Below, piece by piece: positions 9,321 to 29,296 of a DNA stretch of 64,000 nt (positions are counted from its first letter, which is position 1; each line of letters starts with the position of its first letter). Source of the stretch: Snodgrassella alvi wkB2. Lineage in GTDB: Bacteria > Pseudomonadota > Gammaproteobacteria > Burkholderiales > Neisseriaceae. The stretch covers positions 1,700,894 to 1,764,893 of the forward strand of contig NZ_CP007446.1 in NCBI RefSeq assembly GCF_000600005.1. Reading direction: 5' to 3'. The translations under genes were made by a program, and so were the position numbers. The notes below the pieces were generated by a model. It was not told where the DNA came from. It saw only the letters and a program-made list of their open reading frames with translations, and did no database searches.

Positions 9321-10478
9321 ATGAATTCATATTCTCTTTTCGTAAGCTGTCCGCGCGGGCTGGAAACCATATTAAATCAGGAACTGGTTACCCTGGGCTG
9401 TGAGCAGATTCATAATCGTGACGGCGGTATCGCACTTACAGGTGATTTAGCCAGCGTATACAAAATTAATCTGCACAGCCGTGTAGCCAGCCGGGTACTT
9501 ATCCGTCTGACTACCGGCCACTTTCGCAACGAAAACGAAATTTATCAACTGGCCAGGAAAATCTGCTGGCCTGAATGGTTTGACATAGATAAAAATTTCA
9601 AAATTCATATTGAAGGCAAACAGGCACAAATCAACAGCCTTAATTTTGCTGCCCTCAAAGTAAAAGATGCTATCTGCGATGTATTTCGCGATAAAACCGG
9701 CCGCCGCCCCAGTATAGAAAAATTTCGTCCGGATATCCGCATTCATGTCTTTATTGAAAAAAACGAAATATCTGTTTATCTGGACAGCAGTGGTGAAGCC
9801 TTATTTAAACGCGGCTACCGCAGTGACACCGGTGAAGCACCATTACGTGAAAATCTGGCAGCCGGTTTACTGTTACTGGCCGGCTATAACGGCAGCCAGC
9901 CCTTCATGGATCCTTTTTGCGGCAGTGGTACCCTTGCCATTGAAGCCGCACTGATTGCCACCGGCACAGCACCCGGGCTAGAACGTGCTTTCGGTTTTGA
10001 AAAGCTGAATAATTATAATGATAATTTATGGCAGCAGCTGCGTCGCGCTGCTCAGGCAGCCATACACCAACCATCTGCACCGGTTTTCGGAGCAGATATT
10101 GATAGCAGGCTAATCAGACTGGCTCAGGACAACGCCCGCTATGCCGGTATGGAGCAATATATTCAATGGCAGGTAACAGATGCCCTGGATACCCATCCGA
10201 ACGGGAATAACGGCATCATGATAAGCAATCCGCCTTATGGTGTCCGCCTTTCTGAAATTCAGCTCTTACATGCTTTATATCCCCAATTAGGCAGCTGGCT
10301 GAAACAACATTTTGCCGGCTGGCTGATCGGTATGTTCAGCGCCGACCGTGATATGCCCAAACTGATGCGTCTGTCGCCAAAACGTAAAATCCCATTGTTT
10401 AACGGTAATCTGGATTGCCGCCTGTTCCTGCTGGATATGGTAGCCGGTTCTAATCGACAAAAAGAGCATAAAGCATGA
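9321..10478 (+). CDS. rlmL: THUMP-domain SAM-dependent rRNA methyltransferase, RlmL-like
   Basis: 385 residues matching the N-terminal (RlmL) half of E. coli RlmKL. A THUMP RNA-binding domain covers roughly residues 45-155, then a Rossmann methyltransferase domain with the SAM-binding segment [14 protein letters not shown] near residue 200 and the catalytic NPPYG motif near 305. The family makes N2-methylguanosine at position 2445 of 23S rRNA; as in other Neisseriaceae the RlmK half is absent from this gene. The stop overlaps the start of the next gene by ATGA, so the two rRNA-modifying enzymes are translationally coupled. Confidence 0.88.
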
Positions 10479-13367: not shown

Positions 13368-16300
13368 ATGAGCACACAAGCCAGTCAGCGTATACGCGAA
13401 ATCCCCTATAACTACACCTCCTATTCCGACAGGGAAATAGTCATCCGCCTGCTCGGCAGCCATTCATGGGATTTATTGCAACAGCTGCGCGAGCAAAGAC
13501 GAACCGGCCGCTCAGCACGAATGCTGTTTGAAATACTCGGAGATATCTGGGCAGTTATCCGCAATCCTTACCTAATTGACGACCTGCTCGAACACCAGCA
13601 CCGCCAGCTGGCGCTGGTTAAAGAAATGCGCCATCGCCTCAGCGAAATTCAGAAACGGCGCGACAACAACCAGATGGTCGAGCAGCTGATAAAAAGCACC
13701 GAGCAGGCTATCAGCGATTTTGACAGCAGCTTTGGTAAAACCCGCAGCAAACGCGAACAGGTATTCAACCGCCTGCGTAAAATCACCCACAAAGACAACA
13801 TTATGTTCGACGGGCTGGCGCGCGTTAGCCACGTTACCGATGCTACCGACTGGCGTGTTGAATACCCTTTTGTAGTTATCAACCCGGATCACGAAAAAGA
13901 AGTCGCACCGCTTGTACGCGCTTTAATTGAGCTGGAGCTCACCATCATTCCGCGTGGCGGCGGTACCGGCTATACCGGTGGCGCCATTCCGATGGACGCC
14001 ATGAGCGCCGTGATTAATACCGAAAAACTTGACCAGTACAGCCCGGTTGCCTTACAGCAACTGCCCGGGCTGGAAGGCACTTATCCGGTAATTACCTGCG
14101 GTGCCGGAGTAGTTACCCGCCGTGTAGAAGAAGCCGCCAGTGCTGCCGGCTGGGTTTTTGCCGTAGACCCGACATCAGCCGATGCCTGCTGTATCGGCGG
14201 CAACGTAGCCATGAATGCCGGCGGTAAAAAAGCCGTATTATGGGGCACCACTCTGGATAATCTGGCGTGGTGGAAAATGGTCAACCCGCAGGGGCAATGG
14301 CTGAAAATAGAACGTGTACGCCATAATTTCGGCAAAATCCACGACGAAACCACCGCCATATTTGACATACATACCCTTGATAACGACGGCTACAGCATCC
14401 TTAAAACCGAGCGTCTCGAAGTACCCGGGCAGCGTTTCCGCAAAGTAGGTCTGGGTAAAGACGTTACCGATAAATTCCTTGCCGGTGTACCGGGTGTGCA
14501 GAAAGAAGGCACGGATGGCATCATCACCTCTGCTGCTTTTGTTTTACACCGCATGCCTAAATACACCCGTACCATCTGTATGGAGTTTTTCGGCACCGTA
14601 GCCAATGCCACCCCGTCCATCGTCGAAGTGCGCAATTACATGCTTAACCATAAAACCGTCAAACTGGCGGGGCTGGAGCATCTCGACTGGCGCTACGTGC
14701 GCGCCGTAGGCTACGCCACCAAGGCAGCAGGCAAAGGCCGCCCGAAAATGGTATTACTGGCCGACATCGTTTCAGATGATGAAAATGAAGTACAGGCAGC
14801 AGCAGCTCATATCGTGCGGCTGGCCAACGCCCGCTGCGGCGAAGGCTTTATCGCCGTTACCCCTGAAGCACGCAAAACTTTCTGGCTCGACCGCTCACGT
14901 ACGGCCGCCATCGCCCGCCATACCAACGCGTTTAAAATCAATGAAGACGTTGTTATCCCTCTTGAACAGCTTGGCAGCTATTCCGACGGTATCGAACGCA
15001 TCAACATTGAGCTGTCGATTCAGAACAAACTTGCCCTGTGCGCGGCCATCATCGAATATCTGCAAACCAAACTGCCAGTAGATAAACTCGATACCGACCT
15101 TTCCAGCGCCGAGCTGCTCGGCTCCCGCAAACAGCATGCCCTTGATTACATCACCGGTATCCAGACCCGCTGGACATGGCTGCTCAACCATCTCGACACA
15201 CCACTGGCCGACTATCTGCAGCAGTTTCCGCAAAAACTCGAAGACAACGAACCGGCTGGCGACCAGAGCTGCTTTATCGCCATGCGTGATTTTCATCTGC
15301 GCGTATCCATTAAACGCGACATCATGCAGCCACTGGCCGAAATATTCAGCGGTAAAACCGATACCTTGATACTGGAAAAACTCGACGAAATTCACCGCCA
15401 TATCATCCGCGGCCGTGTCTTCGTTGCCCTGCATATGCATGCCGGTGACGGCAATGTCCATACCAACATTCCGGTTAATTCCGACGACTACGACATGCTG
15501 CAAACCGCCCATCATGCCGTAGACCGCATCATGGCACTGGCACGCAGCCTTAACGGCGTTATTTCCGGTGAGCACGGCATCGGCATTACCAAAATCGACT
15601 ACCTGACACAGGCAGAAATGCAGCCCTATTGGGATTACAAACAGCAGGTAGACCCGCACGGCCATTTTAACCGCGGCAAACTGATGCCCGGTGCCAACCT
15701 CGACAAAGCCTATACACCCTCATTTGAGCTGCTGGGCGTAGAATCCCTGATTATGGAACAGTCCGAGCTGGGTAAAATTGCCCATTCCATCAAAGACTGT
15801 CTGCGCTGCGGTAAATGTAAACCCGTGTGCAGTACCCATGTACCGCGCGCTAACCTGCTGTACTCACCGCGCAATAAAATTCTGGGTGTCGGTCTGCTTA
15901 CCGAAGCCTTCCTGTACGAAGAGCAAACACGCCGCGGCGTTTCCCTGAAACATTTTGATGAACTAAACAGCGTGGCCGATCACTGTACTGTATGTCACCG
16001 CTGCATAAAACCCTGTCCGGTAAAAATCGACTTTGGCGACGTCACCGTAGCCATGCGCAACTACCTGCGCAAAGCCGGTAAAAAGAAATTCAATCCCACC
16101 GTCTACATGGGCATGGCCTTTCTTAACGCCACCGACCCCAGAACCATCAAAGCCCTGCGTACAGGCGTCGTTAAAGCCGGCTTCAGACTGCAAAACTGGG
16201 GCTATGAAATGGGTAAGCACTTTAGCCTTGGCTGGCTGAAGCGCCAGAAAACCGCACCGCGTGCTACCACTGCCAAGCCGGAAATCCGCGAACAGGTAAT

Positions 16301-17198
16301 ACACTTTATCAACCGCCCTTTACCGCGCCACGTACCGATTAAAACAGCCCGTGCCCTGCTGAATATCGAAGACAGCACCACCGTACCGATTATCCGCAAT
16401 CCGCAGATCAGCGATGAAGCCGAAGCCGTTTTCTACTTTCCCGGCTGCGGCTCCGAGCGACTGTTCAGCCAGATAGGTCTCGCTACTCAGGCCATGCTCT
16501 GGCATGTAGGCGTGCAAACCGTCTTACCGCCGGGCTATCTGTGCTGCGGCTATCCGCAAACCGCCGGCGGTAATAAAGACAAAGGCGATAAAATCACCAT
16601 GGACAACCGCGTACTGTTCCATCGTGTAGCCAATACCCTGAACTATCTTGATATCAAAACCGTAGTCGTAAGTTGCGGAACCTGTTACGACCAGCTCAAA
16701 GATTATCACTTCGATAAAATTTTCCCCGGCTGCCGCATACTCGATATTCATGAATACCTGCTGGAAAAAGGGCTGAAACTGAACGGCGTAAAAGGCCGGC
16801 AATACCTGTATCACGACCCCTGCCATACCCCGATTAAAATCACACAGCCGATAAAAGTTGTGAATGAGCTGATGGGGCAGAACGTACCTCTGTCAGACCG
16901 CTGCTGCGGTGAATCCGGCATGTTTGCCGTCAGCCGGCCGGATATCGCCACACAGGTACGCTTCCGCAAACAGGAGGAAATTGAAAAAGGCAAAGCCAAG
17001 CTGCCTCAGGGTGAACCGGTAAAAATCCTCACCAGCTGCCCCGCCTGCCTGCAAGGCCTGAGTCGCTATACTGATGATGCAAATATCAAGGCCGATTATG
17101 TAGTGATTGAAATGGCCAAACATATACTGGGCGAAAACTGGCAGGATGAATTTGTGCAGAAAGCCAGTAACGGAGGGATTGAGCGGGTGTTACTGTAA
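13368..17198 (+). CDS. Fused DUF3683 / FAD-linked oxidase / Fe-S oxidoreductase (D-lactate dehydrogenase-like)
   Basis: 1276 residues. Order: DUF3683 region (1-150), FAD-binding PCMH-type domain (about 165-400; [14 protein letters not shown] binds the cofactor), FAD-oxidase C-terminal domain (to about 780; [12 protein letters not shown] and GEHGIG), a dicluster 4Fe-4S module ([11 protein letters not shown] and [12 protein letters not shown], about 808-880), then two CCG cysteine-rich domains ([40 protein letters not shown]). This architecture is that of membrane-associated D-2-hydroxyacid dehydrogenases such as Dld-II and GlcDEF fused into one chain; electrons probably reach the quinone pool. 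The substrate is inferred, D-lactate being most likely. Monocistronic, ending at a strong terminator. Confidence 0.88.
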
Positions 17199-17206
17199 AT
17201 AGGATT

Positions 17207-17246
17207 AAAAAAAGGTTGCTACTTTACTAAGTAGCAACCTTTTTTA
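17207..17246. terminator. Bidirectional intrinsic terminator
   Basis: GGTTGCTACTT (17214-17224) and AAGTAGCAACC (17229-17239) make a perfect 11-bp stem with a 4-nt loop, preceded by seven A and followed by seven T. It can end the oxidoreductase transcript from the left and the SIR2 transcript from the right. Confidence 0.93.
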
Positions 17247-17310
17247 TTAAGTCTGATTTCTATAGCTGAAAATTAAGCACTAAAATATAAATATTTTATT
17301 CATTGGCACT

Positions 17311-20300
17311 TTAATGAATATGGCCTAGCAAATTAATATGCTTTAGCGGATTAGCTTGTTCATAAAATTCATCAGTTTCAGCAAAACGCACCTCTGGCAA
17401 TGCATCATTTTTAGCTTCTTCCAATATATCTTGTAAGTCTAAATTTAATTGATTACTTCGTTTCAGAATATCCCGCGCTAGTTTCACACATCTTGCCCGA
17501 ATTGTGGGAAATAAGCTAATTTCTATAGTATTATTATCAGTAATATATCTATAGTCGCATTCATTATAAATTTCTGGTAAGTTTTCAATTAAAATATTAA
17601 TATCATCATTAGTTAGCCAGCCTTGATTCAGCATCTCATTGATAACTGGTAAAATATTTACTATGCCTACTAATTTTACTGACTCTACATGGTTAATCAA
17701 TTTATTAATTAACGGACGTATCACGATTCTATCTGATAATTTATTTCCCCATTCGAGAATTGCTTTAGCTGCATCACAAACTACTAGTTCATTTTTGCTT
17801 CTCAATCCCATTTTAATTATATCTATTACTTCTTTATCTAATTGGGAATTATTTAATACAAAAGGAACAAATGTCCTAATTGTGTAATATTTTTCTAAAA
17901 AACCATTATTTTCTATATAGAAAGAATAAAATTTTTCAAAATTATCTTTATTTAAATATTCTTTAGGAAAATATTGTACTAGATAATATAAAATACAACC
18001 TATACATTCTAATTTTATTTTTTTCTTTAGGTTTACAAATTCAGAAACAGAAATAAGCATCTTTTCTTTATTTTGTTGTTCATCATATTCCCAACCTGTA
18101 AAATAATCGAAATATTCGATTATTATCTTGATATCAGGTTTTAATTCTTTTTTTTGCCATAAAAGTATAATTAATAATTTCTCTAAAAAGTCTAAATCAT
18201 CAGAAGGTGGTACTGTAAATACCATATCAATAATTAAACTGTATACTTGTTCTATGTTTTTTCTAGGTGGAATTTTTAGAAAAAAATCGGGACAAAAAAT
18301 GTTATTGTGATGAAGTAAATCTTGATAATCAGGATTTTTTCCATATAGATTTAGAATCAATTGTTTTTCTTCATTCTCATAAAGAAATTTATTATTTATC
18401 AAAGGAAGAATGCGATCCACTATTTTTAAATTGATTCTAGATGAATAATTTATATATTTAATTAATTCATTAATTGCATAATCAAGTTGATTATCAGCTT
18501 TACGTTTACCAGGATGCTGAATTATAGGATTCAACAATTTATTGTTTATAGGAAACTGTAATGCCTCTGTAAGAAGTTCATGATGTTGCTTAGTAGGAAT
18601 ACTTTGCAATGAATAATTTAATAGATCACTTATTGAGTTTTCAAAAATCATATAGAAAGGCCAATTATTTTTATACAAATCTAAAGCCAATCTATAATAT
18701 TTTTTTGCTTCTTCTGATGAAAGCCGGAGTTGGAATCTGGCTAAAATTTTAATAAAATTTGATAAATAATTGATCAAATATTCTATTTTATTGTTATTAC
18801 CATATTCCTTTATTATTTTATTTTTCCAATACTCTACTGCTTCGGAGCAGCATTTTACAATTTTATCTACCTCATCATAGGTTAATTGAGCAATTGTTAT
18901 TCTATTATATATTTTCTCTAATTGTTCAAATTCACTGTTATCACTAATTTTTATTAATAAAAAAAATTTCATCCAATAATTTGTTTCAACAAGATTAACC
19001 ATATCAATTAAAATTTTTTTAATATATATCAAATTAGGCCATTGAATAGATAAACCGACAATATTACAGATATTATCAAACAAAATTGCTGGAGGAATTT
19101 CAATAACAGAGTTAAATTTTAATGTTGGAGAATTTTCTATAATTTTTCCCGAATCGAAAGATTCTACATATGTTGGCTGTTTTTTATATTTAATAGATTC
19201 TGATAACTTTGCTTCTAAATAATCAATTATGTCATATGGATTACAATTTTGCTGACTATACTTTGAGCCCGAAAATATTAAAGTCTTATGTTTATGCTGT
19301 ACACGATCTGTTATACTTTTCAGCATATGAGCCCATGCTAATCTTGATAAAATAAAAATTGAATTTCTATTATTACGATATCCGAGTACAAGTTCTGTAT
19401 AAGCTTCATCTATTAAACCAATGCTTTCTTCATAGCAAGCTATTTCCGATAAAATAAATGCTTTCCTTAGTTTCCATATTGGATCAACCCCCTGAATTGT
19501 ATTTACTAATTCTTCCATCAGTGGATAATTCAATTTATCCCGTGCTACAAGAATTTGATGATAATAAAGTTCAACAAGCCCTTCACTCCAATATCTGCTG
19601 TTTTCTCTTAAGATTCTTGCAGTTTTATCTATAATCTCTTGCTGGTCAGAATCTTCTTTTATGAACCGAGTACATTTAAGTAAATATAAAGCTATTTCTA
19701 AATGCTGTTTTACAGATAAGCCACTATTAACATCAGGTTCACATATTTCCAGTAATATGGTTCGAATATTTTTATTAATATTAAAATTAAAAATTATTCC
19801 ATATCTCCATACCAATTCATAAAGAAGCTGGTTTCTAATATTTACTTGTTGTTTAAAAATATCAGGAATGAAAAACCAGAATTTATTTATTTGCATCTCT
19901 ACATAAACTCTTAAAGGATTAGGACAAATAATCCATTCTGGATATGATTCTCTATCCTTTCTTAAAGCGGAAAGAGCTTCATCTATTTTTATTTCTCCTT
20001 GGTTACGTGAATAAAGCTTAATAATTTCATCGAATTGTTTAGGAAGCCAATCCCAGACTTTCTTTACCTCTAAGTTTGACAGTTGTGTTAAAAACAATTC
20101 AATTGCTGTTTTATGTTTTAAATCTCTATTATCGATATCGGCAACAAGCTCAAATAAATCAATAGGTGCTACATTCAAACTTTCCAGATACTTACGTTTA
20201 GCAGAAGATAAATTCAATGCACCTACCAGATAAATACGTCGCGCATTGCTTTGAAGATTATCCCTTACCCAGCCTATCCATTGGAGAAAATTCGGATCAT

Positions 20301-20931
20301 CACCGGAAAAACCTATCAGGCATAATTCGTTTTCTACAAACACCTGCCGGACAAAATTAACAAAAATGCCGTATTTCTTCGGATAATGACGGTAATCTTC
20401 CTGGGTAAAAATCAAATCGCTACTGAGATTAATTGTGCCATGTAATTTTACAATCCGGGGGGAATGACAGCAGGCTAAATCCTCCTGTTTATTGACAATA
20501 TCATAGATAGGTTCATGTATATCTCTGGCCGCACGCTCCAGCAATGTATCCCAGTTTGTGGTTAATACTTCAGTCCAGGGTAAAGTTAATAACTGCTGAT
20601 AAAGCTCTGCCGGCTGCCATATTTCATCATCAATTTCATTTTTCAATAAATCATACAGTGTCTGCTTACCAAAGTAATCCTGATACATTTGTGCCAGACG
20701 TAAAGCATCTGTATGCTCCTCCTCTCCAAGTTCTTCAGCAATTTTTTTAGCCAAATTTGCCCAGATTGGCATTTTCTTATTGATATCCTGTGTTGTAGCA
20801 GCACTGCGGCTAAAACCCGCCCCAACCATAATGGCTACCCCATGACCATAATCTTCACTCTGCCACAATGCCTGTGCCAGCTTTTGAATTAAGGGATAAT
20901 CAGTTATTTTGGTAATATCTCTTTCGGTCAT
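17311..20931 (-). CDS. Large SIR2-domain protein, candidate defence-associated sirtuin (DSR-like NADase)
   Basis: 1206 residues. The N-terminal SIR2 domain (about 1-280) carries the NAD-binding GAGFSRSA (37-44), TTNWD (124-128), KLHG with the catalytic-type His164, and GFSGDDPN (207-214). The remaining 900 or so residues are helical and without a recognised domain, as in DSR1/DSR2 antiphage proteins, where the C-terminal part senses a phage protein and the SIR2 domain then depletes NAD. It is a single gene with no partner, facing left into a shared terminator, next to decayed genes. The 5' third has ordinary GC but the rest is extremely AT-rich. Defence function is inferred from architecture; a different NADase toxin role is possible. 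Confidence 0.85.
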   Translation of the reverse strand: MTERDITKITDYPLIQKLAQALWQSEDYGHGVAIMVGAGFSRSAATTQDINKKMPIWANLAKKIAEELGEEEHTDALRLAQMYQDYFGKQTLYDLLKNEIDDEIWQPAELYQQLLTLPWTEVLTTNWDTLLERAARDIHEPIYDIVNKQEDLACCHSPRIVKLHGTINLSSDLIFTQEDYRHYPKKYGIFVNFVRQVFVENELCLIGFSGDDPNFLQWIGWVRDNLQSNARRIYLVGALNLSSAKRKYLESLNVAPIDLFELVADIDNRDLKHKTAIELFLTQLSNLEVKKVWDWLPKQFDEIIKLYSRNQGEIKIDEALSALRKDRESYPEWIICPNPLRVYVEMQINKFWFFIPDIFKQQVNIRNQLLYELVWRYGIIFNFNINKNIRTILLEICEPDVNSGLSVKQHLEIALYLLKCTRFIKEDSDQQEIIDKTARILRENSRYWSEGLVELYYHQILVARDKLNYPLMEELVNTIQGVDPIWKLRKAFILSEIACYEESIGLIDEAYTELVLGYRNNRNSIFILSRLAWAHMLKSITDRVQHKHKTLIFSGSKYSQQNCNPYDIIDYLEAKLSESIKYKKQPTYVESFDSGKIIENSPTLKFNSVIEIPPAILFDNICNIVGLSIQWPNLIYIKKILIDMVNLVETNYWMKFFLLIKISDNSEFEQLEKIYNRITIAQLTYDEVDKIVKCCSEAVEYWKNKIIKEYGNNNKIEYLINYLSNFIKILARFQLRLSSEEAKKYYRLALDLYKNNWPFYMIFENSISDLLNYSLQSIPTKQHHELLTEALQFPINNKLLNPIIQHPGKRKADNQLDYAINELIKYINYSSRINLKIVDRILPLINNKFLYENEEKQLILNLYGKNPDYQDLLHHNNIFCPDFFLKIPPRKNIEQVYSLIIDMVFTVPPSDDLDFLEKLLIILLWQKKELKPDIKIIIEYFDYFTGWEYDEQQNKEKMLISVSEFVNLKKKIKLECIGCILYYLVQYFPKEYLNKDNFEKFYSFYIENNGFLEKYYTIRTFVPFVLNNSQLDKEVIDIIKMGLRSKNELVVCDAAKAILEWGNKLSDRIVIRPLINKLINHVESVKLVGIVNILPVINEMLNQGWLTNDDINILIENLPEIYNECDYRYITDNNTIEISLFPTIRARCVKLARDILKRSNQLNLDLQDILEEAKNDALPEVRFAETDEFYEQANPLKHINLLGHIH

Positions 20932-21299
20932 AGTCTGTCTCCCCTCTGAGAAATCAATTAATACATTGAGAAACCATGTTAAACATTTTCTGTTAAGCGA
21001 ATTTACTGCTAGTTCAGCAAAATAGCTGCTGTAAATTTCAAAACTGACTTAATCAAACAAACACGGCTTATCTATAGTGTAATCAGCATCAATAAAGTGT
21101 AATTTTACTCTAAAAAACACTGTTATAGCTGTCAATATCCCTATTCCGGCTGCTTGAATTTAACATGGGTTAGCAGAAGCTAAGAAATAATTTCCAGCTT
21201 GCATAAACAAGCTTAGTTTTAAAAAAATTAAGCGTAGTAATCAAACTGGCTATTAGTAAAAATCCTCGGTGTTATACTAAAATCCTGATTAACATCCGC
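20932..21299. other. Spacer upstream of the SIR2 gene
   Basis: 368 bp with stop codons in all frames I examined. It should contain the SIR2 gene promoter near 20940-21000. A short hairpin (AGCTTG at 21196-21201, CAAGCT at 21208-21213) is the only structure noticed. It may include further eroded sequence of the decarboxylase remnant that starts at 21300. Confidence 0.45.
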
Positions 21300-21723
21300 T
21301 TAAAAATCATCATTATAGTTAAATACTGCCTTATGCAATAATTTAAGCGACTGATGCTCTGGCAGTGTTAATCTTCTGCTGGTTTCCAGCTTAACTATAA
21401 TTTGATTTAATGTCTGGATTAATCGACCCATTTCTTGAATTAACGATGGCATGGGGCTGGTCATATGCCCTGGATACGTTCGGTTTGCTCAATGAGACCA
21501 AATAGGAATGATAGTATTTTTTACATTATCAATATAGGATTCGATACTTGCGGGCGTTTCAGGAATGATTAAAGTCGAAAAGATATTATCTGACTCTTCT
21601 CTGTTATAAGAGTTAGCCACATCTTTTTGCTCAGTAAATTTCCTAATACGCTAAATAATTTATTGCTGCAAATAAGTAACGGACGGTTCAAATAATTTTT
21701 TTGATAGAAAAATTTTGTTGATT
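21300..21723 (-). pseudogene. Remnant of a PLP-dependent (group II) decarboxylase, N-terminal part
   Basis: One reading frame on the minus strand, interrupted by three in-frame stops (TAA and TAG near 21651-21662, TGA near 21485), gives fragments including KKLFEPSVTYLQQ, SIESYIDNVKNTIIPIWSH and YPGHMTSPMPSLIQEMG, then LNQIIVKLETSRRLTLPEH. The GHMTS...LNQ.IVK.ETS pattern is the conserved N-terminal segment of aspartate/glutamate/diaminobutyrate-type PLP decarboxylases such as PanP. The PLP-lysine domain is missing. It follows the MFS transporter in the same direction, so both probably came from one operon; such pairs occur in siderophore and polyamine loci. Recognised from remembered motif wording only. 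Confidence 0.65.
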
Positions 21724-21769
21724 GAATGTAATCGTGTTACTTAATGTTTTAATAGCTATAGTGTTAATG

Positions 21770-23002
21770 CTAATCGGACTGATTTTGGACGACTCTGGTT
21801 GCCAAAAATGCGGCAAAAAAAGCGATCACAACAGAACCAGTGATTATGACAAAATATCCCCACTTTTGAGCAAAATAAAAACTTAAGGATGCAACGATTA
21901 AATCAAAGCCCCCCAAAATTGCCATCTGAGCATTGGCGGCTGTAGTCGGTGCTACACTACTGGCAGCATTATCCAAAATAATGGTATATAGGCAGGTACG
22001 AACAAACTGCAAACTAACAAAGTACGGGAAAAATGAAAAATAAACTAACAAGGCATTATTATGACCAAGCGAGATAGGGATAAATGACAATAAACAGCAA
22101 GCATAGAATATAATAGAAAACGACAAGCTTTGTTTCCGGGTCAATTTTCTAAGCTGACGAATACCAACGTAAATAGTTATCACCAAAATCATCGTACCGA
22201 ATAATTTTAGCAAAAGGGCAGTATTAGCTAACGACCAGCCGCTATCAAGCAGCGCTAGAGGCATCAGATTATAAGAGGGAGAAATGCCAAAAGGGATAAT
22301 AACCAGCAAAGCACACCAGCTTTTCTTTCCCTTCCAGACTGAAACAATATTCTTCCAATAATTTTTGTCAGTAGTCTCAGAAATACGACTGTTTTTACTG
22401 AACTTATACTCATTAAAAAACCATATTTGCCTCCATGGAAATGAAAATGCCAAAAACCCAGAGAGAAAAATTATGCAGACACTCCAGCTTGTGTAAGAAT
22501 ATAGCACCAACACAATGGCCCCACCAATAATATTGCCGTACATAAAACCGCTAACATCTAGACTAGCAATAAGACCTCTCTCATGCTCTTCAGAAATGTT
22601 GCTGGTTAAGTTTGCCAACGCCAAATCTTGCGTGAGGATAATAAATGAAAAAAATAAAATGGCCAACAAAACTAATAAATAATTATTAACCGGATCAATA
22701 AAAGCAATCGCAAATAAACCCAATATCATCAAAAATTGCGCAATCAACAGCCAGTTCCGATAATGGCCTGAAGATGTTTTTAAATATTTATCAATAAACG
22801 GCGCCCATAACACTTTAAAGCTAAGTGGCAAAGACATGAGTGGAATAAGGCTTAATTTATCCAGCGCAATACCTTTATTGCGTAAAATTAAAAACAAACC
22901 ACTAGCCAAAAATCCAGAGCCAATAATATACCTCGTGTAATATAAAGTAAAAAATAATTTCTGAATCTGTTTGGGGATGTTTTTGATCTCTTTATGGGAC
23001 AT
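21770..23002 (-). CDS. MFS transporter, AmpG / siderophore-transporter-like
   Basis: 410 residues with about 12 hydrophobic segments. The N-terminal pattern (IIGSGFLASGLFLILRNKG...FKVLWAPFIDKYLK) is typical of the AmpG/RhtX/FptX branch of MFS proteins, whose members carry muropeptides or ferric siderophores across the inner membrane. The reading frame is intact with a GAGG ribosome site 13 nt before the ATG. It is flanked by two decayed genes, a second MFS fragment upstream and a PLP decarboxylase fragment downstream, all in one direction, so it may be a surviving member of a broken operon. Substrate unknown. Confidence 0.8.
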   Translation of the reverse strand: MSHKEIKNIPKQIQKLFFTLYYTRYIIGSGFLASGLFLILRNKGIALDKLSLIPLMSLPLSFKVLWAPFIDKYLKTSSGHYRNWLLIAQFLMILGLFAIAFIDPVNNYLLVLLAILFFSFIILTQDLALANLTSNISEEHERGLIASLDVSGFMYGNIIGGAIVLVLYSYTSWSVCIIFLSGFLAFSFPWRQIWFFNEYKFSKNSRISETTDKNYWKNIVSVWKGKKSWCALLVIIPFGISPSYNLMPLALLDSGWSLANTALLLKLFGTMILVITIYVGIRQLRKLTRKQSLSFSIIFYACCLLSFIPISLGHNNALLVYFSFFPYFVSLQFVRTCLYTIILDNAASSVAPTTAANAQMAILGGFDLIVASLSFYFAQKWGYFVIITGSVVIAFFAAFLATRVVQNQSD

Positions 23003-23030
23003 TTTATTACAAACCTCAACGTGACAAAGA

Positions 23031-23253
23031 TTAATTATGTCCAGCGATTGCTATTTTTAATCCTGTAGAGAGCGGGATTAAGCATATCAATACCAGGATT
23101 GCTGAAAAAGTAAATGGGTAACCATCGCTATTTGGTAAGGGTTGATTAACCGTGAAGCAATACATACGGTTTGTACAAACTGGTCCTAATACAGCCCCAA
23201 AATTGGTAATAGACGATAGATGAACCCAACAGAAATAATATAGTACCTAATAA
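23031..23253 (-). pseudogene. C-terminal remnant of a second MFS transporter
   Basis: An open frame of 73 codons without a start lies between the epimerase stop and the intact MFS gene. It reads GTILFLLGSSSITNFGAVLGP, then a short loop, then GYPFTFSAILVLICLIPLSTGLK and a normal TAA stop. This is the usual pattern of the last two helices of an MFS exporter (N-F-G...G-P and Y-P-F-...-S-A). Helices 1-10 are absent, so it is a deletion relic. Its order, MFS then MFS then decarboxylase, resembles siderophore operons with two transporters. Confidence 0.6.
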
Positions 23254-23256
23254 TTA

Positions 23257-24267
23257 TTAAGAAATGTAATTATTTTCTTTGTACCAAGTGACAACATCTG
23301 TAAACGTTTCATCTAAAGGTCTAAATTGACAGCCTAATTCCTTAGCGCTCTTTTCATGACTAAAATGTGTGCGCTTGTATTCATTTCCGATCAAATTCAC
23401 GGACGAATAACTTAATAAAATAGGTTTACGTGTAAATACGTGATAAATTTCCTGCCCCATTGAAATAGCCTTTAATAACCATAAAGGGATAAGCTTAGTT
23501 GGCATTTTTACACCCGTGCTTTTTTCAAGTAATTTAAAAATATCCTTCATTTCCATATAACGCCCTGCTGCAAGATACTTTTCACCACTTCTACCTTTTT
23601 CTAAAGAAGCAATATGATGTTCTGCAACATCCCTAGCATCAACGACTGAAAAACTTGCAGGTAATACACCTGGCATTTTTCTAGCAACATAATCTAATAC
23701 TAATTGCCCAGATGAAGTTGGTCCCATATCAAAAGGACCGTACATCCAACCAGGTAATACAATGGTTATAAACATATCAGGATGATTACTTAAAAACTCT
23801 TTAACTTTTTCTTCTGCTAAAATTTTACTTTTATAATAATTATCACTACCCTCTACAGGGCGTTGCATGGTTTCATCAATTAACTCCTCTTCTTTACCAC
23901 ACAAAGTTGCAATAGATGAGGTATAAACTGCCTTACGGATTCCTGCTGCATAGGCTGCTTCTAATATTTGTTCTGTACCCTTTACGTTCGTATTAAAAAG
24001 TTCATCCCAATGCTTGCCACCTTTATAATTATCTCTAAAAAAAGCCGCACAATGAAATAAAGCATCACATCCTTTTAAATGCGCAGTAAAGCCTTTTATG
24101 TTTAACATATCTCCCTCAATTATCTCAACTAAAGGACTATGAAATTGCTTTTTAGCTTTTTCTACCGACCTTGCCAATACTTTTACTTTAATATTGCGAT
24201 CAATCAAAATTCTTACAATACTACTGCCTAATAATCCTGTTGCACCTGTTACAAACACTACATTCAT
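23257..24267 (-). CDS. NAD(P)-dependent epimerase/reductase (extended SDR)
   Basis: 336 residues, extended short-chain dehydrogenase fold: TGATGLLGSSIV nucleotide-binding glycine motif at 7-18, Ser/Thr in YTSSIATL near 115, and the catalytic NYYKSK (Tyr-x-x-x-Lys) near 145. The DALFHCAAFFRD segment and general layout are like dihydroflavonol-4-reductase-type oxidoreductases. The substrate cannot be read from sequence. It is divergent from a TetR regulator with a palindromic operator between them, so it is probably the regulated target, perhaps reducing an aldehyde or ketone. The AT-rich codon use matches the neighbouring accessory genes. Confidence 0.85.
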   Translation of the reverse strand: MNVVFVTGATGLLGSSIVRILIDRNIKVKVLARSVEKAKKQFHSPLVEIIEGDMLNIKGFTAHLKGCDALFHCAAFFRDNYKGGKHWDELFNTNVKGTEQILEAAYAAGIRKAVYTSSIATLCGKEEELIDETMQRPVEGSDNYYKSKILAEEKVKEFLSNHPDMFITIVLPGWMYGPFDMGPTSSGQLVLDYVARKMPGVLPASFSVVDARDVAEHHIASLEKGRSGEKYLAAGRYMEMKDIFKLLEKSTGVKMPTKLIPLWLLKAISMGQEIYHVFTRKPILLSYSSVNLIGNEYKRTHFSHEKSAKELGCQFRPLDETFTDVVTWYKENNYIS

Positions 24268-24326
24268 TTCTAAAATCCTTATTAAATAGCCCTAGTTCGG
24301 CACAAGTAAAATACCAGACAGAATTC

Positions 24327-24344
24327 AGATACCAATTGGTATCT
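24327..24344. promoter_or_regulatory. Palindromic TetR-type operator
   Basis: AGATACCAATTGGTATCT is an 18-bp perfect palindrome in the 205-bp spacer between the divergent reductase and TetR genes, 60 bp before the reductase start. Its length, symmetry and place are what a TetR-family dimer operator needs. Binding by the adjacent regulator is inferred. Confidence 0.75.
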
Positions 24345-24472
24345 CAAAAAATATATGTTATTCTAATCTTTTAGAAATGGCAATATTTATTAATCAAATA
24401 ATTTATCGTTTTTAAAACAGTTTTAAAGTGTATAAATATTTGGAATACATGAAGTAGCGAAGTACATAAAGT

Positions 24473-25078
24473 ATGCAAAGAAAAACGAGAGCACAGCAAC
24501 AGCAAGAAACTAAAGAAATGTTATTTGCAGCTGCAATAGAACAAATTATTAAATTTGGTTTTGATAAAACAAGCATCAACTCGATAAGTGAAGGCGCAGG
24601 TTTTTCAAAAGGTGCTTTCTTCTCAAATTTTAAAAACAAATACGATTTATTACTACAACTCACAGAAAAACTTAAATCAGAAGAAAGGTTAAGCTTAAAA
24701 TCAGCGCTTGCTATTGATAATGAAAATAATACCATCTCGATAAATGGATTAAACAGCTATGTTGATCAAATAAAAAATAACACCATTTGTGTTATTTTAG
24801 ACATAGAAATGCAGCTTATTGCCAGCAGAGATCAAAACTTCAAACAGTACTACAACCAACTGCAACGGGAAAACAATAAATCGCTAGGTGAAATCATATG
24901 CGCTGTTTTCAAATCAGAAGGAGTACAACCCTCTTTACCTAATGAATCTTTAGCTCAAATATTTATAGCCCTCACCGAAGGACTGATCTTACAAAATGCC
25001 AGCAATCCTGGTGAGCAAATTAAGCATGTACTTTACTCACTAATCGAAAAAGAAAAATATGCTATTAAAACTCTCTAA
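24473..25078 (+). CDS. TetR-family transcriptional regulator
   Basis: 201 residues. The N-terminal TetR DNA-binding domain is clear: QQQETKEMLFAAAIEQIIKFGFDKTSINSI then the recognition helix region GAGFSKGAFFSNFKNKYDLLLQL (residues 12-66). The C-terminal ligand domain is diverged as usual. It is transcribed away from the reductase gene and most likely represses it, and itself, through the 24327-24344 palindrome, released by an unknown small molecule. Confidence 0.92.
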   Translation: MQRKTRAQQQQETKEMLFAAAIEQIIKFGFDKTSINSISEGAGFSKGAFFSNFKNKYDLLLQLTEKLKSEERLSLKSALAIDNENNTISINGLNSYVDQIKNNTICVILDIEMQLIASRDQNFKQYYNQLQRENNKSLGEIICAVFKSEGVQPSLPNESLAQIFIALTEGLILQNASNPGEQIKHVLYSLIEKEKYAIKTL

Positions 25079-25135
25079 TATAGACACTAAAAGAGCATCG
25101 ATATTCCGTTGATATTTCCTTAAAGCATGTCATAT

Positions 25136-25255
25136 TTAAATCTTCACTACCATAGTGCCTTCAGTTACTCTGCGAATGGATAAGGTAAACTCATCATCAA
25201 TTCAATATGCGCCTGGAATTTTAACCGTAGATAGTTTTTTGATCGTTGTGAGCTC
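25136..25255 (-). pseudogene. Possible short coding remnant downstream of the ABC operon
   Basis: A minus-strand frame reads TIKKLSTVKIPGAY, an in-frame TGA, then IDDEFTLSIRRVTEGTMVVKI and a TAA. The phrases look protein-like and would be the C-terminus of a gene following the ABC transporter pair, but I cannot name the family. The remaining 423-bp region between the convergent TetR and ABC genes shows only stops. Low certainty. Confidence 0.25.
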
Positions 25256-25501
25256 TTACCTAGACGTTAATAAAAGAAGGAATACTCGGATAGATAAGAA
25301 ATAAACCAATCTGGTCTGAAAAACCATTATCAACAAACAAATAAACGATAAAGACAATGTCCTCTTTTGCATATCAAACTTACAATAAGGAATTTTCTAA
25401 AAATTTACTACCCAATTTCAAAGTCAATAAGCAAACGACTAAGAATATTGCAAAACATTAAGTTGTATAACTTCATAATTTGCAGAAGGTAGCAGATGAG
25501 G

Positions 25502-27259
25502 TTAATTTTGCTGGAGATGCCAAAACTCCTTATAAATCCCATTTTGTTGCAATAACTGCTGATGAGTACCACTTTCCACTATTTCGCCTTTATCAATTAC
25601 TACAATTTGCTTAGCTCCGATGATAGTTGAAAGCCGATGGGCAATAACTAATACTGTTTTCCCTTGTACGAGCTTATTAATCACCTTTTGCACTGCCAGT
25701 TCATTCTCAGTATCGAGAGCGGCAGTTGGCTCATCGAGGATAAGAATAGGTGCATTTTTCAAAATGGCTCTGGCAATAGAGATACGTTGCCTCTCCCCAC
25801 CAGAGAGACTTTTGCCAATATCATTCAGTTGTGTTTGATAACCGTCGCGAAAATTCTGGATAAATTCGTGGCAATTTGCCTGTTTACAAACTTCGATGAC
25901 TTCCTCGTCACTAGCGGATAATTTTGCCATTCTGATGTTATTAATAATGGTGTCCTGAAACAAATAAACATCCTGAAATACGACAGAGACTAGACTCATT
26001 AACTGCCTCTGAGACATATGTCGTATATCGATACCACCGATTTTAATACTGCCTGATATTACATCAGCAAACCGGAGAATAAGCTTGGTTATTGTAGTCT
26101 TACCGCAGCCACTGGCACCGACCAGAGCGGTTAATGCTTTTTCCGGAATATGAAGGGATATATTCTTAAGTACGTACTTGTCCTGACCCCGGTACGAAAA
26201 GTTAACTCTTTCAAATTCAATATTATAGTGATCAGGCATAATCTCTGCCTTTTTTTCAGGTAATGACGGTGCATTCAACAGTTCCTGCAATTTTTCATAC
26301 CCTATAACCAATGATTCAAGCATCGATGACATTTGTACAAAAAAGTTTAATACATCTGTGGAACGGGCAACGATTAATAACACGCAGGCTAGCAAGAGGT
26401 AAGAAATGGTTGCAGCATTCACCAAATACGCACCTAACGAGATGATAAGGATTAAACCAGCTTGAATCACGATGGTTATAATTAAATTAGGTTTTTCCCC
26501 TTTTTTCGTACCAATGCGCAGTATATTTGCCACATCTGTTGTCACCTTAACAAATTCTGTCATCTTTTCTTCGGTTTGGCCTGTCGATTTTAATACATCA
26601 AGTCCTTGTACAAACTCGACAGCTTCACCTTTTAATTTTGCATTGGCCTCTGCCAGAATGCTAAAACCTCTGCGATAGGCCTTCCTGCGCCACAGATAGA
26701 GTGGAATTGCCATTGGAAAAACCAAGAGCATCATCAAAGAAAGTTGCCAGCTGTAAAATAACAAGGCAATTGCAGCTGACAGTGGTATAACCACGCCGGT
26801 AATGATGATATTGAGTAGCATAAATGTAAATACTGCCGCTTCATTTACGCTTTGCATCATAAGGTGATTTATTTCGCCAGATCTAAACTGACTTAAATAA
26901 TCTAAGGAAATATTACGTAACTTATTGCCTAATTTTTCCCTTAGCTCGGTAACGGCTAAGGTCGAATAACCATCCGCATCATAGCGTTCACAAAGCACCT
27001 TAAAAATAAAACTACCTACCAGTAGAACAACGACAATAATTAAATGAGTGAGTGTTGCAGTAATATTTTTGGCTTCTAGCGCAGCAAATAAGGGGTATAG
27101 TAAAACCAGCGAAACGCCAAACAGACAAGAGGAAATCACAGTATAAATCAGACTGCGGATCAATATTTTCTTTTGCTTACCTGCCGCATTGATTAAGCCA
27201 GTATACGTTGTCAGCAATGATTTTGTTGTGCGTGTGTATGTATTAATATACTCTTTCAT
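25502..27259 (-). CDS. ABC transporter, fused membrane and ATPase domains (YbtP/YbtQ-like, second gene)
   Basis: 585 residues: six-helix exporter-type membrane domain (about 25-310), then an ATPase domain with GASGCGKTT (Walker A), LSGGERQRISIARA signature, LILDEPTAALD (Walker B) and AHRLS switch His. Its start overlaps the stop of the previous gene by one base, so both halves are made together and probably form a heterodimer. The QANCHEFI segment before the signature and the pairing are like the siderophore importers YbtPQ and IrtAB, which use an exporter fold for import. Iron-siderophore transport is inferred; lipid or drug export is the alternative. Confidence 0.87.
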   Translation of the reverse strand: MKEYINTYTRTTKSLLTTYTGLINAAGKQKKILIRSLIYTVISSCLFGVSLVLLYPLFAALEAKNITATLTHLIIVVVLLVGSFIFKVLCERYDADGYSTLAVTELREKLGNKLRNISLDYLSQFRSGEINHLMMQSVNEAAVFTFMLLNIIITGVVIPLSAAIALLFYSWQLSLMMLLVFPMAIPLYLWRRKAYRRGFSILAEANAKLKGEAVEFVQGLDVLKSTGQTEEKMTEFVKVTTDVANILRIGTKKGEKPNLIITIVIQAGLILIISLGAYLVNAATISYLLLACVLLIVARSTDVLNFFVQMSSMLESLVIGYEKLQELLNAPSLPEKKAEIMPDHYNIEFERVNFSYRGQDKYVLKNISLHIPEKALTALVGASGCGKTTITKLILRFADVISGSIKIGGIDIRHMSQRQLMSLVSVVFQDVYLFQDTIINNIRMAKLSASDEEVIEVCKQANCHEFIQNFRDGYQTQLNDIGKSLSGGERQRISIARAILKNAPILILDEPTAALDTENELAVQKVINKLVQGKTVLVIAHRLSTIIGAKQIVVIDKGEIVESGTHQQLLQQNGIYKEFWHLQQN

Positions 27260-29010
27260 TACTTTTCTCCATCAGCCAAATTATTGACTGGAATCGACCA
27301 ACTTTTTGCTTTGTTATACTCTTGCCACAACAATTTATAGTCACTAGAATTTTCGATTAAATCATTATGTGTCCCATGAGTTTTAATCATCCCTTTATCC
27401 AATAATATTATTTGGTCGGCATTGACAATCGTCGATAAGCGGTGAGTTACCATAATGACAGTTTTATTTCTATCAATTAGACGGTTAAAGGCTTTTAACA
27501 ACAAAGCTTCATTTCGGGCATCAGAAAAAGCCGTCGGTTCATCTAAAATAACGATTGGTCGATTTTGCAGAAAAACCCGGGCAATGGTGATTCTCTGTTT
27601 CTGACCACCTGATAATAGCTGCCCTCTTTCTCCTGCCAGAGTGTTATACTGTTCAGGAAGGGTCAGAATGAAGTCGTGAATTTCAGCTTTTTTGGCGGCT
27701 TCAATAACGTCATCGTCAGAGATACCGTTTAACCCATAGCGTATGTTATCGGCGATCGAACACGAGAATAAAAAGTTATCCTGAAAGACAAATGAGATTC
27801 TCGACATAAGTTCAGCGTATTCAATATCTTTTATATTCACGCCACCTAAAGTTATCGTTCCAGAGGTTGTATCAAGAAAGCGAGGAATGAGATTAGCCAG
27901 CGTTGTCTTGCCAGAACCAGATGAACCAATAAGAACAGTAAATGAATTTTCAGGAATTTTGATATTGATATTGGATAAAACAGTGCCAGAATTCTGGTAA
28001 GAAAACCCAACGTTTTTAAAAATAATCTCATTATTGTCAGGTAATAGAGGGTTGGAGGGAGCCTTTAAAATTGGCAGATTTTCAACTTCAAATATCCTTT
28101 CTATTGCTGCCTTTGACTTTTGTAATATCTGAAACAGGCTCATCACAGGATAAACACTTTCTGCAATACCGATCGCCAGCAATAAAAAACAGAACGTCGC
28201 GATAAAAGAGATTTGGTCATTTAGCTGGGCTATGCTCAATCCAACAACTAATATGATACTCATCGGCATAGCAGAGAAAAGGCTGCGGGCAATTTTTGTA
28301 GACAATCGCATAGATTGCAACCAATGAAAGACCACCTGACTATAATTTTCCAGCGCTTTTTGATATTGACCGAATGCCCCCTCCCCGGCATCAAATGTTC
28401 TTACCGCACTCATTCCCTGAATATATTCAATGATTTTACCGTTGATTTGAATAGTTGCATTGTTATAGCTTTCCTTTAAAAGCTTAGCTTTTTTCATGAT
28501 AAAACTCAGCAGCAGAAAAGTAACTAAAGTGATTGCAAATACAATGCTTGCAAAGACCCAATTAAAGATAAATAAAACGAGTAAGGTAAAAATTGGGGTA
28601 ACGAATGCCTCAGCTTTTAAAGGCGGAGCATCAGCCACAAAAGCATGTAATTCTTTAATATCATCAATTAATGTTTTAACAAGATTCCCACTGCCCATGT
28701 TTCTAACCGTTTCAATTGGCAATTGATTGATTTTTTTGATAAGCCTGGTTCGTAATATTTCTTCTAGTTCAAATGCCGCATAGTGAGATTTATCGTGGGC
28801 ATAAGTTCTCAGCGTATAAAAAAGAATGCTCAGCACAAGCAGAGAGAGAATGGGCAGTCCCGGGAAGACACTGGCATCCAACATTAATTGGTACAGGACC
28901 CAGATCAACATTAGCCAGATACTCAGTTTAAGCACCTGAGCAATTGATGCCAAAAATATAGAATAAGATACTTTATTCTTTACTGGCAGAAATATATCCG
29001 TATGATTCAT
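27259..29010 (-). CDS. ABC transporter, fused membrane and ATPase domains (YbtP/YbtQ-like, first gene)
   Basis: 583 residues from the ATG at 29010, chosen because AAGGAG lies 10 nt before it; an upstream in-frame ATG at 29046 has no such site. Six-helix membrane domain, then ATPase domain with GSSGSGKTT, LSGGQKQRITIARV, VILDEPTAFSD and THRLS. Partner of the next gene in a translationally coupled pair. A weak Fur-like sequence (TGATTATCAT near 29130-29139) sits about 120 bp upstream. With the MFS gene and decayed decarboxylase nearby it may belong to a former siderophore locus. Confidence 0.87.
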   Translation of the reverse strand: MNHTDIFLPVKNKVSYSIFLASIAQVLKLSIWLMLIWVLYQLMLDASVFPGLPILSLLVLSILFYTLRTYAHDKSHYAAFELEEILRTRLIKKINQLPIETVRNMGSGNLVKTLIDDIKELHAFVADAPPLKAEAFVTPIFTLLVLFIFNWVFASIVFAITLVTFLLLSFIMKKAKLLKESYNNATIQINGKIIEYIQGMSAVRTFDAGEGAFGQYQKALENYSQVVFHWLQSMRLSTKIARSLFSAMPMSIILVVGLSIAQLNDQISFIATFCFLLLAIGIAESVYPVMSLFQILQKSKAAIERIFEVENLPILKAPSNPLLPDNNEIIFKNVGFSYQNSGTVLSNINIKIPENSFTVLIGSSGSGKTTLANLIPRFLDTTSGTITLGGVNIKDIEYAELMSRISFVFQDNFLFSCSIADNIRYGLNGISDDDVIEAAKKAEIHDFILTLPEQYNTLAGERGQLLSGGQKQRITIARVFLQNRPIVILDEPTAFSDARNEALLLKAFNRLIDRNKTVIMVTHRLSTIVNADQIILLDKGMIKTHGTHNDLIENSSDYKLLWQEYNKAKSWSIPVNNLADGEK

Positions 29011-29296
29011 AATAAAGTTTCTCCTTAGCCCATATCTATCATGCAATAAAAAAATCCGAATAGAAAAAAAGCTGTTTTTTTCTGATTATTCGTTAAGTTA
29101 TGATTCTTTTAAATCATATATCCGGCAATTGATTATCATCTGATAAATTATTTACAATCAGACAGATAAAAAAATACATTGCCAAAGTAGCTACTACTTT
29201 AGTTGCAGATTTTTTTGGTAGGGTTAAGAAACTGATATTTTTATTTTTATTGTTATGCAAGCAGCGATTTATCTGCCTGCACAGAAAATTTATTAT

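Follow-up and report, generated by a model that had tools for sequence, protein, structure and literature searches.

The 64,000-nucleotide stretch of the Snodgrassella alvi wkB2 genome analyzed here, referred to as the window, contains at positions 17311-20931 of the minus strand a Dsr2-type SIR2 gene that was delimited as an open reading frame (ORF) and matched Dsr2 models from end to end. The gene starts with an ATG codon and specifies 1206 amino acids without an internal stop codon; a Shine-Dalgarno-like GGGGAG motif was read directly from the sequence just 5' of the start codon (20939-20944, minus strand). The deduced protein can be divided into a SIR2 NADase (nicotinamide adenine dinucleotide hydrolase) domain that comprises residues 1 to approximately 290 (20062-20931, minus strand) with the presumed catalytic residues Asn126 and His164, and a helical C-terminus from residue 300 to the end (17311-20034, minus strand) that is predicted to form a HEAT-like alpha-solenoid and is presumed to be the sensor. 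The motifs of the SIR2 part are GAGFSRSA, T124-T-N126-W-D128, K162-L-H164-G and G207-FSGDDPN214. The gene is intact. A first-pass annotation made from the sequence alone gave no strand but exactly these coordinates and the same NAD-binding motifs, which it noted as intact.

The SIR2 gene converges with a conserved FAD/Fe-S (flavin adenine dinucleotide/iron-sulphur) oxidoreductase gene containing DUF3683 and FAD-oxidase_C domains (13368-17198, plus strand), which forms the left flank of an insertion site extending from 17199 to 29296, while a conserved heavy-metal P-type ATPase gene (29297-31507, minus strand) forms the right flank. Between the stop codons of the two facing genes lies a hairpin (17208-17246) with A and T runs on either side and a fold z-score of -6.7, a presumed bidirectional terminator that agrees with the shared terminator noted in the first-pass annotation. 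The hairpin was not among the sites listed by a generic consensus terminator scan, probably owing to base pairing of the A and T runs within the stem. The G+C content of the SIR2 gene is 0.296, compared with 0.529 and 0.515 in the two conserved flanking genes. In a search of 61 related genomes, the full-length protein was found in the window's own genome only, and two others matched part of the SIR2 domain. Since the full-length gene occurs in one of 61 related genomes and differs so strongly in G+C content from its flanks, it was probably acquired recently. No transfer RNA gene was found within the window.

A comparison of the deduced protein with Pfam listed four families up to an E-value of 1. 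SIR2_2 (residues 121-257, E 2.3e-22) alone exceeded its gathering score; the three further matches were at chance level and under their cut-offs. Pfam gave neither a match in the C-terminus of approximately 900 residues nor a nucleoside triphosphatase (NTPase) match. The best profile match was the PADLOC model Dsr2 (PDLC02184, 1222 positions), which aligned from model position 11 to 1214 with residues 13-1185 (E 2.6e-136, 454 bits), followed by ThsA models that covered the SIR2 part only (residues 30-236) and by three weaker matches to the SIR2 part. The NCBIfam Dsr2 equivalog NF041819 (1215 positions) aligned over residues 13-1185 as well, with 446 bits. The window protein shares with Dsr2 as modelled in PADLOC and NCBIfam its length, the N-terminal position of the SIR2 domain and an alignment from end to end, and likewise no partner gene was seen among the window neighbours scanned; its nearest full-length relatives in our alignment are 39-40% identical to it. 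Both models are, as we presume, derived from Gao et al. 2020. Judged by sequence comparison, the protein belongs, as a divergent member aligned over its full length, to the long Dsr2 family of approximately 1200 residues, and the earlier label "unclassified" was wrong. The check for a best match to a non-defence SIR2 family, proposed together with that label, returned PADLOC Dsr2. Among 369 genomes of the class, eight matched the NF041819 profile, the window's own from end to end and seven in part only, and none exceeded the cut-off of the profile; in the control, one of 14 genomes likewise matched below the cut-off.

A genome-wide scan with the single protein as query detected no relative. 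With an alignment of seven rows as query, at least 386 confirmed stretches were obtained from named genomes, the best 80 of which were kept, and 13 loci were detected in viral contigs. The fetched loci contained 90 ORFs of relatives with at least 1100 residues. A whole-length alignment of 65 rows was generated from 64 relatives and the window protein; six sequences from plasmid or phage records and six truncated or short ORFs were left out, as were, to limit the size of the alignment, 20 others that were mostly weaker matches. The residues Asn126, Asp128, His164, Gly207, Ser209, Asp212 and Asn214 are identical in all 65 rows, and positions of the C-terminus, including W333, P337, F592 and R732, are conserved throughout the rows as well. 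Conservation drops along the C-terminus and reaches its minimum at residues 951-1050. In a quick tree with a midpoint root and support by the Shimodaira-Hasegawa-like approximate likelihood ratio test only, the window gene was placed on a long branch within a 26-row group with a support of 100, the other members of which all belong to Pseudomonadota or to viral contigs (three rows). The full set of relatives extends to Chloroflexota, Gemmatimonadota and Methanosarcina.

The downstream end of the oxidoreductase gene was obtained from 11 of the 13 other genomes of the genus, one of which (G012) carries this gene in two pieces, and the stretches beyond it (L132 to L142) were fetched. DNA similarity to the window ends at 17182-17201 in ten of the 11 stretches, within 20 bases of the oxidoreductase stop codon, and at 17241 in the other; it restarts at 29286-29328, the end of the P-type ATPase gene, in six. 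Scanning with PADLOC identified as cargo a methyltransferase with a PD-Lambda-5-like protein (L132), IetA with IetS of the Ietas system (L134), LmuA with LmuB of Lamassu (L135), a CBASS cyclase with a 2TM effector (L138) and, in L142, a methyltransferase-like protein together with a protein that covers an NsnA model except for its first third. Additionally, two stretches (L136 and L137) contain ORFs with N-termini identical or nearly identical to those of the L135 pair, with LmuA split in L137 as judged by this resemblance. Recognisable defence genes are accordingly present in seven of the 11 stretches, five by scanning and two by resemblance, while one stretch is empty (L139), one contains small ORFs only before the right flank (L140) and one has a different right flank (L141). 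The region between the oxidoreductase and P-type ATPase genes is an insertion site used by defence systems, and because it holds such systems in genomes of the same genus, an acquired antiphage role of the SIR2 gene, which adjoins the left junction in the window, is supported. One further stretch encodes a protein of 1069 amino acids (L133, 1148-4354) with a single Pfam match, PIN-TPR-GreABC, just under the cut-off and no PADLOC match, and this ORF is a candidate for an unknown defence gene.

Upstream of the SIR2 gene, the segment 20932-21769 contains no ORF of at least 80 amino acids, and the part from 21303 to 21770 shares 98% identity with a stretch at another place in one sister genome. 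The "degraded accessory zone" of the first-pass annotation is consistent with this gene-free segment, part of which is common to one genome, but for the surroundings as a whole "occupied insertion site" is the more fitting term. An origin of the segment from remnants of the small site ORFs of sister genomes was not supported, as tblastn gave only two marginal matches, neither of them within the segment. A mobile unit joining the SIR2 gene with the major facilitator superfamily (MFS) gene of the inserted segment was also considered. A sister genome (G006) that is only 60% complete carries a diverged copy of the MFS part elsewhere, with a stop codon inside, and has no SIR2 match; the SIR2 gene and the MFS part likely moved separately. 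A search for the oxidoreductase gene in viral contigs found nothing.

To characterize the genetic neighbourhood of the relatives, ORFs were read around 12 of the closest loci and ten neighbour proteins were scanned against Pfam; moreover, eleven neighbour proteins served as queries against 93 loci, 15 of which span less than 9 kb, which does not amount to a full neighbour survey. In two of the 93 loci, from the Pasteurellaceae genera Cricetibacter (L012, 3693-13747) and Bibersteinia (L013, 3667-15540), the long Dsr2-type gene is flanked by cas3 and cas5 within a type I-C-like cas operon and lies on the same strand. Pfam was run on Cas3 and Cas5 of the former and Cas1 of the latter only; in naming cas8c and cas7, in calling the operons type I-C-like and in judging their gene order, we follow common usage. 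A literature search found no paper that joins SIR2 with cas8c, and none of the titles listed by another concerned a sirtuin gene in a type I-C CRISPR-Cas operon. In five of the 93 loci, representing genomes or bins (L010, L016, L018, L020 and L021), the gene adjoins mod and res of an operon resembling type III restriction-modification systems, and in three of them (L010, L020 and L021), if the longest ORFs are taken, it overlaps the SNF2 helicase gene ahead of it as well as the methyltransferase gene behind it. In a further two of the 93 loci, the viral contigs L090 and L092, a terminase gpA gene lies on one side of it and a lambda-type portal gene on the other, and here it is probably a prophage-borne defence gene. 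A gene encoding a ThsB-type TIR protein (9794-10384) lies beside the long Dsr2 gene of Neptunomonas (L011), and a KAP NTPase gene is found near that of another locus (L014).

The assignment to a defence-type SIR2 NADase is well supported, because PADLOC Dsr2 is the best profile match, some of the relatives have defence genes as neighbours and the insertion site carries defence cargo in sister genomes; the antiphage role proposed in the first-pass annotation is likely on the same grounds. We consider it likely that the product of the gene acts alone in abortive infection, as a member of the long Dsr2 family that hydrolyses NAD+ by means of its SIR2 domain when triggered by a phage. At rest, the N-terminal SIR2 domain would be kept inactive within the protein, probably in an oligomer. 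A molecule made by the phage, most likely a protein, would then bind to the long helical solenoid, whereupon the SIR2 active site with Asn126 and His164 may open. The resulting hydrolysis of NAD+ would stop the infected cell before phage release. NAD depletion is the likely output in view of the family, the active site and the genetic context, and the NADase activity, the oligomer, the protein trigger and the antiphage effect in the host are inferred. Within this scheme the oligomer and the trigger, for which the Bacillus DSR2 protein serves as analogy, are the weakest links.

It is for the DSR2 protein of Bacillus subtilis 29R, 1005 residues long, that structures and a tail-tube trigger have been published (PMC10973363, PMC10981675, PMC11087589 and PMC11263360). 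This protein (PDB 8k98 and others) is a tail-tube-activated NADase and has, like the window protein, a SIR2 domain with the Asn/His pair and a helical C-terminus in the same layout (PMC10981675 and PMC11263360). The predicted structure of residues 1-1190 of the window protein reached a mean predicted local distance difference test (pLDDT) score of 86.1 and a predicted template modelling (pTM) score of 0.75, and that of residues 300-1190 alone reached 86.6 and 0.86, respectively. In both models, helices make up nearly the whole C-terminus, apart from a single short pair of strands. In a search of the PDB with the whole model, which gave 102 hits at E <=0.001, ranks 1-44 of the 50 hits listed were whole-length Bacillus DSR2 chains (E 3e-14 to 3e-10; TM score by target 0.31-0.52) and ranks 45-50 were DSR2 chains consisting of the SIR2 domain only (TM score by target 0.78-0.85). 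The C-terminus model retrieved inositol trisphosphate receptors, karyopherins and other solenoid or helical proteins as the top 50 of 983 hits up to E 10, ten of the 50 being at E <=0.001; no DSR2 chain was among these 50, though C-terminus-only DSR2 entries exist (8ygk and 8ygo), in a comparison in which flexible solenoids superpose poorly. The whole model gave no match in BFVD at E 0.001 or better. We read these models as indicating the same architecture as Bacillus DSR2 with a generic solenoid, and as providing no specific support for the same sensor.

At the sequence level, a profile of seven long relatives detected Bacillus DSR2 by way of the SIR2 domain; a second aligned stretch was no better than chance. 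Bacillus DSR2 is matched along its entire length by a Priestia protein (L143, 1254 bits). Neither Dsr2 model recognised this Priestia protein at the limits applied (E 1e-5 for PADLOC, E 0.001 for NCBIfam), and the SIR2 domain was the only part of it that aligned with the long family. An hhalign comparison of the C-terminus of the long family with that of the Priestia protein yielded 45 columns at a probability of 8% (E 0.004). The name "DSR2" is accordingly, in terms of sequence, shared by two families with C-termini that have no clear relation. The first-pass annotation had called the C-terminal sensor unfamiliar and without a recognised domain: this holds for Pfam, for the comparison with the sequence of the solved Bacillus DSR2 and for the 50 hits listed in the fold search with the C-terminus alone, and the helical nature agrees with both models, but the C-terminus is known to the Dsr2 models and is present in many full-length relatives.

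Against this background, it appears doubtful that the window protein truly corresponds in function to Bacillus DSR2 and is activated by the tail tube protein through a diverged but homologous C-terminus. Such an equivalence would fit the common layout, the first rank of Bacillus DSR2 in the whole-model fold search and a weak collinear match in the middle, between residues ~465-520 of the window protein and ~393-440 of the Priestia protein, which appeared in three comparisons, in two of them with E-values of 0.002 and 0.004, each for a single comparison; it would also be compatible with the differences between species in the activator-binding regions of DSR2 proteins that are described in PMC11087589. 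On the other hand, the profile of the C-terminus found no Bacillus DSR2 among the PDB sequences up to E 1, and both the hhalign result and the karyopherins and other solenoids, with no DSR2 chain among the 50 hits listed, retrieved by the C-terminal model argue against a homologous sensor. The tail tube protein should not be assumed to be the trigger of the window protein.

A separate observation concerns residues 588-610 (19102-19170), where the short strand pair and a low-confidence loop interrupt the otherwise helical region; within this segment, Phe592 never varies and Gly595 hardly does. The tail tube is contacted in Bacillus DSR2 by a strand from a region that is comparable (PMC11263360), which is a resemblance only.

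Several data weigh against the preferred reading. The score of 446 bits is far under the curated NF041819 cut-off of 1400 bits; since the five other long relatives scanned missed this value as well (453-682 bits), the cut-off is narrow and the window gene is to be placed in the wide family, not in the equivalog defined by NCBI. The rest of the inserted segment, which encodes an MFS protein, an epimerase, a TetR regulator and two ATP-binding cassette (ABC) transporters, is not defence-like, and the matches of the two ABC transporters to the PADLOC models mad3 (E 5.5e-35 and 1.1e-30) and mad8 are most likely generic ATPase matches. Most of the 93 loci showed no match to the few neighbour queries used, with partial matches in a few further loci. 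Moreover, of 114 alignment columns with a conservation of 90% or more among the other 64 rows, the window protein deviates at seven, three further departing positions being insertions; the gene lies on a long branch and is among the rows flagged for unusual composition, which leaves some room for a loss of function by drift. The long branch, the low G+C content and the non-defence neighbours would also be expected of a housekeeping sirtuin or a non-functional relic without a defence role, but this explanation is improbable in view of the open frame of 1206 codons with an intact start signal, the invariant catalytic residues, the patchy distribution and the location at a defence site.

A ThsA-like (Thoeris) or Sir2-HerA-like (Nezha) effector that requires a partner gene is very improbable, because, although ThsA is the closest solved SIR2 domain in a single-sequence search and the Neptunomonas relative adjoins a ThsB-type TIR gene, the ThsA models match without their C-terminal SLOG/STALD part, no TIR, HerA or Argonaute gene was present among the seven window genes scanned beside the SIR2 gene, namely the five others of the inserted segment and the two flanking genes, and the neighbours of the relatives are mixed. 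The window protein also differs from Avs5 (SIR2-STAND), as neither Pfam nor the Walker A pattern G....GK[ST] revealed a P-loop NTPase domain.

With respect to the preferred reading of the gene as a stand-alone abortive-infection protein of the long Dsr2 family, it is tempting to speculate, with somewhat less than even confidence, that this family represents a receptor class separate from the tail-tube-sensing Bacillus DSR2. Its members would have kept the SIR2 killer domain, and perhaps a middle module, while an unrelated solenoid of 900 residues would read a different phage product, possibly by a surface around residues 951-1050. Repeated placement in CRISPR-Cas and restriction operons would then possibly provide a second line of defence that fires once phages have passed the first.

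These data have consequences for the annotation of Dsr2 proteins. No trigger of the long family was found in the literature examined, a statement that does not extend to the whole literature. Since one name covers two families without a clear C-terminal sequence relation, the published tail-tube trigger is not simply transferable to the long Dsr2 proteins that are detected by PADLOC or NCBIfam. Additional defence genes of the genus may be sought at the insertion site between the oxidoreductase and P-type ATPase genes. The window gene itself adds one more divergent Dsr2 protein, and the occurrence of two families under one name matters more.

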